From Leucothrix arctica (GTDB taxonomy: Bacteria > Pseudomonadota > Gammaproteobacteria > Thiotrichales > Thiotrichaceae): a stretch of 64,000 nt of DNA. This document shows, one piece after another, positions 57,481-64,000 of this stretch. The position numbers and the translations under genes are program-made. The stretch covers positions 1 through 64,000 of the forward strand of contig NZ_QGKL01000026.1 of the NCBI RefSeq assembly GCF_003172895.1, written 5' to 3'. The notes beneath the pieces were generated by a model. That model saw nothing but the letters and a program-made list of their open reading frames with translations, searched no databases and had not been told where the DNA came from. The first letter of the stretch is position 1; each line of letters starts with the position of its first letter.

Positions 57481-58092
57481 TCACTCAGCACGAAAAAATA
57501 ACTCATCATCCTGCCAAAAAGTAACCAGTGTAATCTGCCGACTTTCTAACTTGCTACGCCTCTCTGGATGAAGGTCTGGTAGTTGGTATAAGCCGTTTGC
57601 AGGCAGCTCTACTTCACGGTTCACGATCGACGTCATATCTATCCAAAGCTGATAAACCGTATCTGCAACCTCCATACGCTGGTTCTCATAAAATGTATTG
57701 TGATGAAAGAAGTCAATCGGTGCTAACTGCGCTGCCACTGACCAAATTAATTGCTGTGGGTGTTGCTCACCAAATTCGATTAAAAAGCTTGGGAAATGGG
57801 CTGCGTAGATGGTAAAAATGGGTTGTTCTGGTGGGTGTGCTTTTAAGTACTGGGCGCAAATGAACGGGTAACCTTGTGCACCGATGTAGGCATGCGCAAT
57901 AGGGAAGTGCGACTGCAAATGCTGCTCGACACCCACGTGAAAATTACGTTGGTAAATACTTAACGCGACTTCTTTTGGAATGCGTGAACTGCAACGCCAG
58001 TTATCCAGTCCACCAGAGTCACTTTCCTGATAAATGTGCTCAGACATCTGTTGTTGCGCTTCGGAGAAGGGCGAGGTTTGTTTATTGCCCAT
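57481..58092 (-). CDS. DUF2063 partner protein of an MNIO locus
   Basis: A 203-residue protein with the DUF2063 (BufC/HvfC-like) outline: SIYQRNFHVGVEQHLQSHFPIAHAYIG near the N-terminus, then a helical middle (LIEFGEQHPQQLIWSVAAQLAPIDFFHHNTF). This family partners DUF692 oxidases and probably helps them bind the precursor peptide. It overlaps the stop of the upstream DUF692 gene by 11 bases, so the two were coupled. That upstream gene is now broken, so this copy may have lost its use. Confidence 0.75.
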   Translation of the reverse strand: MGNKQTSPFSEAQQQMSEHIYQESDSGGLDNWRCSSRIPKEVALSIYQRNFHVGVEQHLQSHFPIAHAYIGAQGYPFICAQYLKAHPPEQPIFTIYAAHFPSFLIEFGEQHPQQLIWSVAAQLAPIDFFHHNTFYENQRMEVADTVYQLWIDMTSIVNREVELPANGLYQLPDLHPERRSKLESRQITLVTFWQDDELFFRAE

Positions 58093-58855
58093 AAATATTC
58101 CTAGCTAACATTTGGCGTTCACTTTCTAATTCATCAAAGCCGGGTAAGTTATTATCACGCTCGATAATAGTAGGGATGTCACCGTAGGCGGCATGTGCGG
58201 CTTTTAGTAATTCGCAAACTTCTGGTGGGACTTCTTCACCATGCGTATCAACCCAATAGCCTTCGTCACCCTGTTCATTGCTTGGGTGAAACTTAGAGCC
58301 AGCCACGTGTATTTGTGCAATATCATTTGCACCGATTAACGATATGAGTGTGGCGAGTTCTGCGTTTGGATCAAGGTCAAAGTTAGTCGAATTGGTCCAT
58401 AGATTGTTTAAGTCTAATAGCATTCGGCAGCCAGTTCGCTTCATAAGCTCTGCGGTAAATGCCCACTCGCTCATTTCATCTTGCTGGAAACGTTGGTAAT
58501 AACTAATGTTTTCCAAGACTAAAGGCGCATTAATACTTTGCTGTACCTGATCAATTCGCGGACAGAGGTAGCCCAACATATCTTGAGTAAATGCAAAGGG
58601 GAGTAAGTCAAAATGTTGTCGTTTACCCGCTGCAGACCAGCACAGGTGATCAGACAGCCAAGCAGCTTCAGTATGTTGATAGATAGAAGCTAAGGCACTG
58701 AGGGTATTTGGTATCTAAAGGGTATGGGCCAGCAATGTTTAAACCAACCGCTTGTAGTGCAATAGGGTAATGCTCGCGTACAATAGTAAATCATCTGCGA
58801 TCATTTCAAACCAAGGTGTTTTTTGGTTTGTTTCGTAGAATGATATGCTTCCCGC
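58082..58855 (-). pseudogene. DUF692 (MNIO) iron oxidase gene, frameshifted
   Basis: The last 165 codons are open from 58579 (MLGYLCPRIDQVQQ...LVLENISYYQ, CRMLLDLNNLWTNS, IAQIHVAGS, DTHGEEV). Upstream the homology continues in other frames: AAWLSDHLCWSAAGKRQHFD up to about 58705, then REHYPIALQAVGLNIAGPYP, then TPWFEMIADD near 58800-58820. At least two frameshifts (near 58705 and 58785) plus a small deletion split the gene. The intact family member makes modified peptides with iron ions; compare the intact copy at 62700. This one cannot make a full protein. Confidence 0.82.
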
Positions 58856-58864
58856 TCACTTACG

Positions 58865-58968
58865 TTACGATTTTTTTAACTTGGAACTCAGTCTTTACTA
58901 AGACAGTGCTACCGTCTTTGTTCTTAACCATGAAGTGGCCATTTTCGTGCTGAGCATACTCTTCAACT
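58865..58968 (-). pseudogene. Unidentified gene remnant
   Basis: A short minus-strand frame ending with TAA at 58865-58867 reads HLVEEYAQHENGHFMVKNKD then GSTVLVKTEFQVKKIVT. A stop lies just upstream and there is no start. It looks like a real protein tail rather than chance, but I cannot identify it. It lies upstream of the broken DUF692 gene. Confidence 0.35.
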
Positions 58969-61649: not shown

Positions 61650-62540
61650 ATGTTCCCAATTAATTACATCGAACCCGTATTTCGCCCGCCCAGTGAAGCT
61701 TATTCGCTCGTTCTGCAAGTCACCAACGGTTGCTCGTGGAATAAATGTACGTTTTGCGATATGTACACCGCTGACCAAAAGAAATTCCGACCTAAGCCTC
61801 AAGCAGATATTGATCAAGAGTTACAGGCAATTGCAGCAACAGGTGAGCATGTACGTCGCGTGTTCCTGGCTGATGGCGATGCGGTGACATTGTCATTTAA
61901 ACGTCTCAAAGGCATTTTAGAATCCATCAAAAAGTACCTGCCAAAGGTACAGCGTGTTTCCTCCTATTGTTTGCCACGAAATCTACTAAATAAAACCGTC
62001 GAAGAACTTACCGAACTCCGTGAGTTAGGCCTGACGCTTATGTATGTCGGCTGTGAAAGTGGCGACGATGAAGTACTGGCTGCGATCAATAAAGGTGAGA
62101 CTTTTAACAGCTCACTAGATGCGTTGATAAAAATCAAACAAAGCGGCATGAAAAGCTCTGTGATGATTCTAAATGGCATGGGAGGCGTACGATTCAGTGA
62201 GCAGCATGCATTACGCTCAGCGTTGCTAATGAATGAAGCACAGCCTGATTATTTAGCAACACTCGTTGTGTCGTTTCCTATGGGGATGCAGCGTGTACAA
62301 GCGGGTTTTGAGGATCAATACCTGCCGCTAGAACAGATGGACTTATTCCGTGAAATGCAGATGTTATTGGAGGCGTTGGAGCTAGAGAAAACGATTTTCC
62401 GTAGCGACCATGCCTCTAACTATTTAATCCTAAAAGGTGTGTTGAATAAGGACAAAGAAAAGCTGCTGCAAACGGTGAACCAAGCGATCGCTTCACCGAG
62501 TAGTGCAGGGCTGAGACAGGAATGGCAGCGTGGGTTGTAG
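61650..62540 (+). CDS. Radical SAM protein with CX4CX2C cluster motif
   Basis: A 296-residue radical SAM enzyme. The [4Fe-4S] motif is NGCSWNKCTFCDMY near residue 29, with four residues between the first two cysteines, then FLADGDAVTLS near residue 72 and YVGCESGDDEVL near residue 132 (SAM binding). No B12-binding or C-terminal extra FeS domain is seen. It belongs to the Elp3/MiaB/NifB-like fold group; no specific reaction can be assigned. It lies about 150 bases before the intact DUF692 gene, but nothing shows they work together. Confidence 0.8.
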   Translation: MFPINYIEPVFRPPSEAYSLVLQVTNGCSWNKCTFCDMYTADQKKFRPKPQADIDQELQAIAATGEHVRRVFLADGDAVTLSFKRLKGILESIKKYLPKVQRVSSYCLPRNLLNKTVEELTELRELGLTLMYVGCESGDDEVLAAINKGETFNSSLDALIKIKQSGMKSSVMILNGMGGVRFSEQHALRSALLMNEAQPDYLATLVVSFPMGMQRVQAGFEDQYLPLEQMDLFREMQMLLEALELEKTIFRSDHASNYLILKGVLNKDKEKLLQTVNQAIASPSSAGLRQEWQRGL

Positions 62541-62699: not shown

Positions 62700-63527
62700 A
62701 TGGATCTTGCAGTTTCAGGATGTGGTATTGGGCTTCGATTTTCACATATCGATCAGATACTAGAAGAGCGTCCCCCAATCCCTTGGCTAGAGGTATTAAC
62801 TGATAATTACTTAGTTGAGGGTAGTGTGCAGCAAGATTATTTATTAGAGGTTGCCGATCATTACCCGCTTACCATGCATGGTGTGGGGTTATCACTAGGC
62901 TCAGTTGATCCATTGAACATGGATTATCTCAAGCGTTTAAAAGCGTTAGCCGATAAGGTTAAACCAGCATGGATTTCGGATCATTTATGTTGGTCAGCCG
63001 TTCATGGTATGCATACACACGACCTCATGCCTTTGCCTTACAACCAAGCTACCATTGAACATGTGTCTGCTCGTATTAAGCAAGTTCAAGACTTCTTAGG
63101 ATATGAGTTGATTATTGAGAATGTATCTAGCTACTTGCAATACAAAACGTCAGAGATGCCTGAGTGGGTGTTTTTTAGCGAAGTTGCTGAGTCTGCTGAC
63201 TGCGGCATGTTGTTAGATATTAATAATATATACGTGAGTGCCCATAATCATGAGTTTGACCCTGAGACGTATTTGAATACGGTTCCCGCTTCAAGAATTC
63301 GGCAAATGCATTTAGCTGGATTTGAAGATCGGGGTACGCATTTGCTCGACACACATGGTCACCCTGTACCAGATGTTGTGTGGGCGCTTTATGAGAAAGC
63401 ATTGCAGCGGTTTGGGCCTGTGCCAACACTGATTGAATGGGATAATAATATTCCCACCTTAGACGTTTTATTACGAGAAGCGAGTAAAGCATCAGACATG
63501 CTCCAACAGTCTGGCAAGGTGATGTAA
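62700..63527 (+). CDS. DUF692 (MNIO) multinuclear iron oxidase, intact
   Basis: A 275-residue TIM-barrel enzyme of the DUF692/MNIO family, which uses two or three iron ions to modify cysteine or other residues in ribosomal peptides (bufferins, methanobactin and relatives). Likely ligand segments are MHGVGLSLG near residue 61, WISDHLCWS near residue 98, LIIENVSSYL near residue 140, LLDINNIYVSAHNHEFDP near residue 175, MHLAGF, LLDTHGHPV and LIEWDNNIP. The ATG at 62700 follows a weak GAG; a TTG four codons upstream is also open. It abuts its DUF2063 partner. No precursor gene is visible upstream. Confidence 0.88.
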   Translation: MDLAVSGCGIGLRFSHIDQILEERPPIPWLEVLTDNYLVEGSVQQDYLLEVADHYPLTMHGVGLSLGSVDPLNMDYLKRLKALADKVKPAWISDHLCWSAVHGMHTHDLMPLPYNQATIEHVSARIKQVQDFLGYELIIENVSSYLQYKTSEMPEWVFFSEVAESADCGMLLDINNIYVSAHNHEFDPETYLNTVPASRIRQMHLAGFEDRGTHLLDTHGHPVPDVVWALYEKALQRFGPVPTLIEWDNNIPTLDVLLREASKASDMLQQSGKVM

Positions 63528-64000
63528 ATGGATCTTAGCAAGTTACAACATCTTGTCGCTCATGCGCTGTTTGATAAGCAACCAGATTTAATCGCGGCGA
63601 GTAAAAATGTTTTATCGCAAGGCCAATTAAATGCAGAGCAGCGCTTAGGTATTTATCGGAACAGTACAAGGGCCATCTTGAAGCAGCACCTCGCCGCGTT
63701 ATTTTCGGTTTCTCAGCAACTCATTGGGCAACAACGATTTGCAGTGTTGTCCAATACGTTTATTGACCAAAATCAACCATCAACGCCTTATCTTGCGGAC
63801 TTTGGCGAGTGCTTTAATGACTTTATAAGTCAACAAGAAGCGCTCAAGTCTCATCCGTATATAGCAGATGTTGCAAGCTTAGAGTGGATGCGCCATTTAG
63901 CCTGGCACCAACCAAACCAGCCCATTGCAGACTTTTCCCAATTAGCCGAACTGAATGAACAAGCGCAAGCGGAGTTACACTTCGAGCTACCTAGCTCCGC
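63528..64000 (+). CDS. DUF2063 partner protein, partial (window end)
   Basis: Starts with ATG directly after the DUF692 stop (TAA then ATG with no gap) and runs off the window after 157 codons. It reads LGIYRNSTRAILKQHLAALF near residue 43 and LEWMRHLAWHQ near residue 121, the DUF2063 (BufC/HvfC-like) pattern. With the DUF692 enzyme it forms the core of a peptide-modifying unit. The rest of the gene, and any further genes such as a precursor peptide, lie beyond the window. Confidence 0.82.
   Translation, partial: MDLSKLQHLVAHALFDKQPDLIAASKNVLSQGQLNAEQRLGIYRNSTRAILKQHLAALFSVSQQLIGQQRFAVLSNTFIDQNQPSTPYLADFGECFNDFISQQEALKSHPYIADVASLEWMRHLAWHQPNQPIADFSQLAELNEQAQAELHFELPSS

Follow-up and report, generated by a model that had tools for sequence, protein, structure and literature searches.

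Which peptide is modified by a bufferin maturase whose gene has no precursor gene in front of it? The order bufABC is described as strictly conserved, from preliminary analyses, in PMC12452194, and the survey reported there sought candidate precursors among the genes preceding MNIO genes. That survey also counted some 4,000 main-cluster enzymes without a known type of precursor as neighbour. The question is raised here by two genes at the end of the window, by which is meant the whole stretch of 64,000 nucleotides analysed from Leucothrix arctica (contig C19:1-64000; genome G000, 4.75 Mb in 44 contigs), and which is continued by the contig in the same numbering. Two systems already known, one for a copper-binding peptide and the other a copper pump, are found combined in one conserved cluster, in an order unseen in the other loci examined.

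The bufB-bufC pair and the region upstream

The reading frame of bufB is intact, from the ATG at 62700 to the end of the stop codon at 63527. Its product passes the equivalog cut-off of the NCBIfam model NF050167, MNIO_BufB (373.7 bits, cut-off 310), and in the alignment with MbnB and 3bww the His, Asp-His, Glu-Asn, Asp..Asn and His-x-Ala-Gly blocks all align, which we take to be the iron-ligand blocks common with MbnB. The frame of bufC is complete on the contig and starts at 63528, directly abutting bufB with a 0-nt gap. BufC contains a DUF2063 domain (PF09836, 60.6 bits, cut-off 27.2), falls short of the NCBIfam model for HvfC (48.7 bits, cut-off 142, for the part inside the window) and has no match among solved structures. 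The earlier note had described an intact MNIO/DUF2063 unit, and this is borne out by PF05114 and NF050167 for bufB, by PF09836 for bufC and by the complete frames.

A radical SAM gene precedes bufB and ends at 62540. Between 62540 and 62700 the list of open reading frames of at least 25 aa contains no separate plus-strand frame and no small Cys-rich one, and its sole minus-strand frame there, 35 aa long and without Cys, overlaps the start of bufB. A precursor directly upstream of bufB is therefore rejected, in agreement with the earlier note, which had left open a precursor located downstream, elsewhere or of a new kind. The downstream option proved right, with a DUF2282 gene whose start lies 4.9 kb beyond bufC, while the new kind is rejected, the distal peptide being a DUF2282 protein with the four-Cys layout of Buf1.

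On the minus strand of the window, at 57481-58966, lies a decayed second bufferin-type locus, in which the precursor tail lacks the signal peptide and the Cys core and the DUF692 N-terminus is disrupted, the DUF2063 frame looking intact. This locus shares 72% nucleotide identity over 1113 nt with an intact locus on contig C22.

The genes past the window

The genes that follow bufC are listed in Table 1. A standard precursor immediately past bufC would have made this an ordinary locus; instead, a Cus-type copper pump operon contributes the next three genes. While the precursor itself is ordinary, the locus is not entirely so. A search for a DoxX gene, as suggested in the earlier note, gave no match above 30 bits in contig 62000-81000.

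Table 1. Features of the cluster, in contig coordinates, with model matches
Feature	Coordinates	Strand	Model match
bufB, MNIO (DUF692) bufferin maturase, 275 aa	62700..63527	+	PF05114 364.5 bits; NF050167
bufC, DUF2063 partner (PME-type 1), 256 aa	63528..64298 (window covers to 64000)	+	PF09836
CopL-like Cys protein, 121 aa	64362-64727	+	CopL_fam 20.6 bits, below cut-off 40
cusB	64766-66019	+	PF16576 247.9 bits; HMBD 46.1 bits
cusA (Cu/Ag-type HME-RND pump)	66029-69136	+	TIGR00914 1290.2 bits, cut-off 701.45
bufA, 91 aa	69173-69448	+	PF10048 (DUF2282) 74.4 bits, cut-off 22.4
bufA-hlyD2 gap with hairpins, 105 nt	69449-69553		
hlyD2, second HlyD-type adaptor	69554-70675 (L005:7555-8676)	+	TIGR01730 108.7 bits, cut-off 94.9

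The best solved-structure match of CusB is CusB from E. coli. CusA scores 1376.6 bits to E. coli CusA as opposed to 526.8 bits to the Zn pump ZneA, and its Met569, Met619 and Met668 align with the Met triad 573/623/672 of E. coli CusA (E. coli positions counted by hand), which we take to be the residues that bind Cu(I)/Ag(I). Pumps of the CusBA type move Cu(I)/Ag(I) out of the periplasm. Neither cusC nor cusF is among the open reading frames of the cluster. The model CusF_Ec has no match in the G000 genome, and over 63 genomes of the family there is no match in 62 and one, below the cut-off, in the remaining genome. As 60 of these 63 genomes are without the bufferin-Cus merger, CusF fails to reach the cut-off with or without it, so that CusF loss does not explain the merger and the absence of CusF here does not speak for its replacement by the bufferin.

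The CopL-like protein has a hydrophobic N-terminus and four Cys residues aligned in three species. A cusA gene (threshold 1e-250) is present in 24 of the 63 family genomes, and near it no DUF2282 match occurs in any of 21 genomes outside the genus. Among nine cusBA loci of the family fetched outside the genus, a CopL-like gene precedes cusB in eight, the ninth being ambiguous (by eye), and there is no DUF2282 match near the pump in these loci, which identifies the copL-like gene as a gene of the pump operon.

The second adaptor, hlyD2, has no pump gene of its own and lies behind bufA in all three genomes that carry the cluster. Its orthologues in the two sister genomes are 68% and 57% identical; for the family match ranked next, identity falls to 34%. 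A convergent RelA-like gene (labelled by eye) follows hlyD2.

The distal precursor and its pairing with MNIO genes

Four genes separate bufB from the distal bufA, the fifth gene downstream. The product of bufA carries four Cys residues in the Buf1 arrangement, all four of which are kept in 24 of 25 aligned bufA rows of the family, this BufA included, and its N-terminus is hydrophobic as judged by eye, without a signal-peptide predictor. The match to NF050166, the model of the BufA2 precursor, reaches 25.3 bits, below the cut-off of 60.

G000 has four genes of the DUF2282 type and as many MNIO matches, of which one is decayed; the two sister genomes hold two of each (G028) and three of each (G029), the MNIO genes there having been sought with BufB as query at 1e-40, which a remote MNIO could escape. 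In the three genomes each DUF2282 gene except the distal bufA adjoins an intact MNIO gene (two of them in one tandem), and a DUF2282 gene of its own accompanies each intact MNIO gene detected apart from this bufB. With the other intact MNIO enzymes already paired, no free partner except the distal bufA is left for BufB.

At L008:10154-11232, on the minus strand, two DUF2282 precursors in tandem stand in front of another BufB-like gene; the second precursor has a long C-terminal repeat of the NPCAAK type.

Conservation within the genus

The order bufB-bufC-copL-cusB-cusA-bufA-hlyD2 is identical in G000, G028 and G029, the three genomes of the genus with this bufB. In all three species the seven genes lie on one strand with intergenic gaps of -4 to 105 nt, lengths that depend on gene starts taken mechanically in the two relatives. 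Identities across the trio are 90–92% for CusA, 80–82% for BufA, 64–80% for BufB and 30–45% for the CopL-like protein, the least conserved of the cluster. The dN/dS ratios between G000 and G029, a pair for which dS is unsaturated, are 0.106 for bufA and 0.122 for bufB and indicate that both genes are under purifying selection, although most dS values are saturated and the estimates of selection are rough.

The genus sample comprises seven genomes: G000 and two of 5.0–5.2 Mb have the cluster, and the other four, of 2.0 to 2.6 Mb, are without this bufB, which says little for three of them as they are 56–69% complete. The flanks upstream of bufB differ, with the radical SAM gene in G000 and, by eye, a glutamyltransferase-like gene on the other strand and, in G029, a transposase-like frame in the sisters.

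Promoters, terminators and the hairpins before hlyD2

Scans of the cluster gave no excess of promoters (11 sites as compared to 14.6 in shuffles) or of terminators (8 sites as compared to 8.0). The gap between bufA and hlyD2 is 105 nt long in all three species and folds into hairpins in each, with z-scores of -1.8, -3.1 and -2.1. In the second hairpin (contig 69497-69523) nine of nine pairs are standard in the three species, five of them with changes on both sides, while the first is variable in length and keeps only six consecutive pairs in the G000 fold. No match to the gap was found in Rfam (L005:7447-7557, contig 69446-69556). As no T-run follows the hairpins (by eye), and judging from three sequences only, the hairpin could be an mRNA-stabilising or attenuating element that keeps BufA more abundant than HlyD2.

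Bufferin loci in the family and the class

A BufB-like match (1e-40) is present in 54 of 63 family genomes. Twenty neighbourhoods of the best-ranked matches, a subset of all, were fetched and give 21 loci together with our own. In the 18 other loci outside the trio bufA without exception precedes bufB in the same orientation, within 130 nt in 15 of them; 541–655 nt separate the two genes in L077, L078 and L081, a DoxX-like gene intervening in L078.

The wider comparison covered 88 neighbourhoods, 28 of named loci and 60 from a class-wide draw (matches in 77 of 276 genomes), of which the best-ranked after G000 and G044 were taken. By shared sequence, G044 is the uncultured Thiothrix MAG of L039. 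A precursor model has its match ahead of the MNIO gene and co-directional with it in 73, behind it in one (L044) and nowhere in 14; among the latter, seven have a small Cys-rich frame upstream, three have less than 240 bases of upstream sequence and four are left over. A further 53 stretches were hand-picked from the DUF2282 matches of that draw, mostly without a BufB listed beside the peptide: an MNIO gene lies downstream in 30, none is present in the fetched stretch in 19 (some cut by contig ends), and four were flagged as having it elsewhere. In L184:3979-10257 the order is bufBC, two sigma-54 activators, bufA and a DoxX-like gene (labelled by eye). L211 and, by its like spacing, L212 are separate loci, and L171 probably has no displaced precursor, having been flagged only because its bufB frame, read as an overlong ORF call, starts before bufA. 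A displaced precursor thus occurs rarely elsewhere, and a Cus operon between bufferin genes occurs in none of the 141 stretches (88 and 53; slightly fewer distinct ones, since L211 and L163 overlap and L039 is a repeat of the family locus L079).

At L044:4797-6900, from a Baikal gammaproteobacterial MAG, the bufB-bufC pair precedes a gene for a nine-Cys, DUF2282-like protein 154 aa in length.

RND genes also occur near MNIO genes that are not merged with a pump operon, at a distance of a few kb in L087, L094, L107 and L059. On the opposite strand to the MNIO gene, cusBA lies about 4 kb away in L087 and about 12 kb away in L096, and RND genes of 240 and 201 bits are found in L107 and L059, respectively. 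In L094 an RND gene (113 bits) follows bufC in the same orientation, some 3 to 4 kb further on, and L106 has a weak cusA match (80 bits) within the MNIO stretch. An association of an HME-RND pump with a bufferin locus was rejected for L207: its RND gene, although on the same strand, is separated by an opposite-strand gene, has a CusA score of only 218 bits and by eye resembles AcrB. In all seven loci a small precursor or precursor-like frame lies upstream of the MNIO gene. Closeness alone, seen also in such unmerged loci, is weak evidence.

The family MNIO genes of L087, L089, L090, L091, L093, L094, L095 and L096 are about 50% identical to BufB and have small Cys-rich, mostly lipoprotein-like precursors with CKG motifs upstream (Buf2-like by eye), some of them in tandem. 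A search of plasmids returned 78 records with matches.

Trees and origin of the cluster

Midpoint-rooted trees were built from 33 BufB and 33 BufA proteins, which represent the 21 family loci, 10 of the 28 named loci and two paralogues of our own genome. The trio is grouped in both, with support of 91/88 for BufB and 97/94 for BufA, and lies beside operons of two genera of the Thiothrix group with bufA before bufB, on a joint branch supported by 83/85 and 94/83, respectively. The two trees disagree on the branching inside the trio, and elsewhere their reading is limited by some long branches and open forks. The distance matrices of BufA and BufB correlate with r = 0.93 over 33 pairs, uncorrected for shared ancestry. 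The position of the trio beside bufA-first operons, together with the presence of copL-cusB-cusA without a nearby DUF2282 gene outside the genus, suggests that an ancestral bufABC operon seems to have merged with a copL-cusB-cusA operon, and either piece could have moved.

Proposed function and alternatives

Gene content, gene order, their conservation in three genomes and the pairings of the other MNIO genes with their precursors make it probable that a bufferin operon has merged here with a Cus-type copper-efflux operon, and that BufB and BufC modify the distal BufA, which would act as a periplasmic copper buffer beside CusBA. The seven genes would then be co-transcribed. BufB together with BufC would most likely oxidise the two central Cys residues of BufA, probably to thiooxazoles as in bufferin 1, before the peptide is exported by Sec; the modified BufA would chelate excess copper in the periplasm, and CusBA would pump copper out, fed via the metal-binding domain of CusB. 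From the copper chelation reported for bufferin 1 and the export performed by CusBA-type pumps we infer that a chelator and an exporter of periplasmic copper are brought together in the cluster. A closer cooperation may be imagined but is rather unlikely, in which modified BufA and HlyD2 hand copper to CusBA in a chaperone role of the CusF type, with BufA as a dedicated periplasmic carrier; the ribosomal metallophore would then be a working part of the efflux system and not a passive buffer. Whether bufferins store copper or feed a pump could be tested here on a single gene set, since both systems lie in one cluster conserved in three species.

The cell's other DUF2282 peptides may be additional substrates of BufB and BufC. 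That the pair would act mainly on them, serving in trans the bufferin precursors of other loci with the pump an incidental neighbour, is improbable: the genome does have three further DUF2282 genes, and service of several precursors by one MNIO pair is suggested in PMC12452194, but those precursors adjoin intact MNIO genes of their own, and the gene order is kept in three diverged species despite unlike flanks. We give still less credence to the CopL-like Cys protein as a new kind of substrate, with the distal DUF2282 peptide as a bystander. Although its gene comes first after bufC and its product has a hydrophobic N-terminus and the four aligned Cys residues, it is the least conserved protein of the cluster, and its recurrence before cusB in eight of nine loci outside the genus, with no DUF2282 gene near the pump, assigns it to the pump operon; two of these eight loci, L087 and L096, do have an MNIO gene, with its own upstream precursors. 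An artefact of assembly or recombination that joined two unrelated operons is hardly credible, since the junctions are identical in three genomes treated as separate species, at identities of 90–92% for CusA and 64–80% for BufB, despite the transposase-like frame seen upstream of bufB in G029.

The merger of a bufferin operon with a copper-efflux operon, which we prefer, also bears on genome mining, as some of the precursor-less MNIO enzymes counted in PMC12452194 may have a displaced precursor, as is the case here.

Comparison with known systems

In bufferin 1, copper is chelated through thiooxazoles and growth is aided under copper excess, and in Buf1 the central Cys residues are modified while the first and last form a disulphide, according to PMC12452194. 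Expression of the Caulobacter DUF692 and DUF2282 genes is given as raised under copper in a table of PMC8224329. RND or efflux is not mentioned in the main text of PMC12452194. The survey described there reached five genes to each side and set no distance limit for DUF2282 genes; as bufA is the fifth gene downstream, this locus may be in its tables. No published description of a joint bufferin and copper-efflux locus was found in a search that was thin on subscription papers and covered articles without their supplements.

The Buf1 clusters (bufABC with or without doxX, and the gig operons of Cupriavidus and Legionella) have the same DUF2282 precursor, MNIO enzyme and DUF2063 partner, each of which scores above its cut-off here; the gig table in PMC5413113 contains only DUF2282, DUF692, DUF2063 and DoxX genes. 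In the present cluster the precursor gene lies behind copL-cusB-cusA instead of coming first, and no doxX was found, so that the rule of a precursor before the MNIO gene, which holds for canonical bufABC, does not apply. The nearest relatives of BufB and BufA outside the genus are those of the bufABC operons of the Thiothrix group, where bufA is located upstream of bufB, as in all 18 family loci, whereas here it is located downstream, behind the pump. With cusCFBA of E. coli the cluster has in common a CusA with an aligned Met triad and a CusB with a metal-binding N-terminus; it differs in the absence of cusC and cusF from the cluster, in the bufferin genes on both sides of the pump and in the extra adaptor after bufA.
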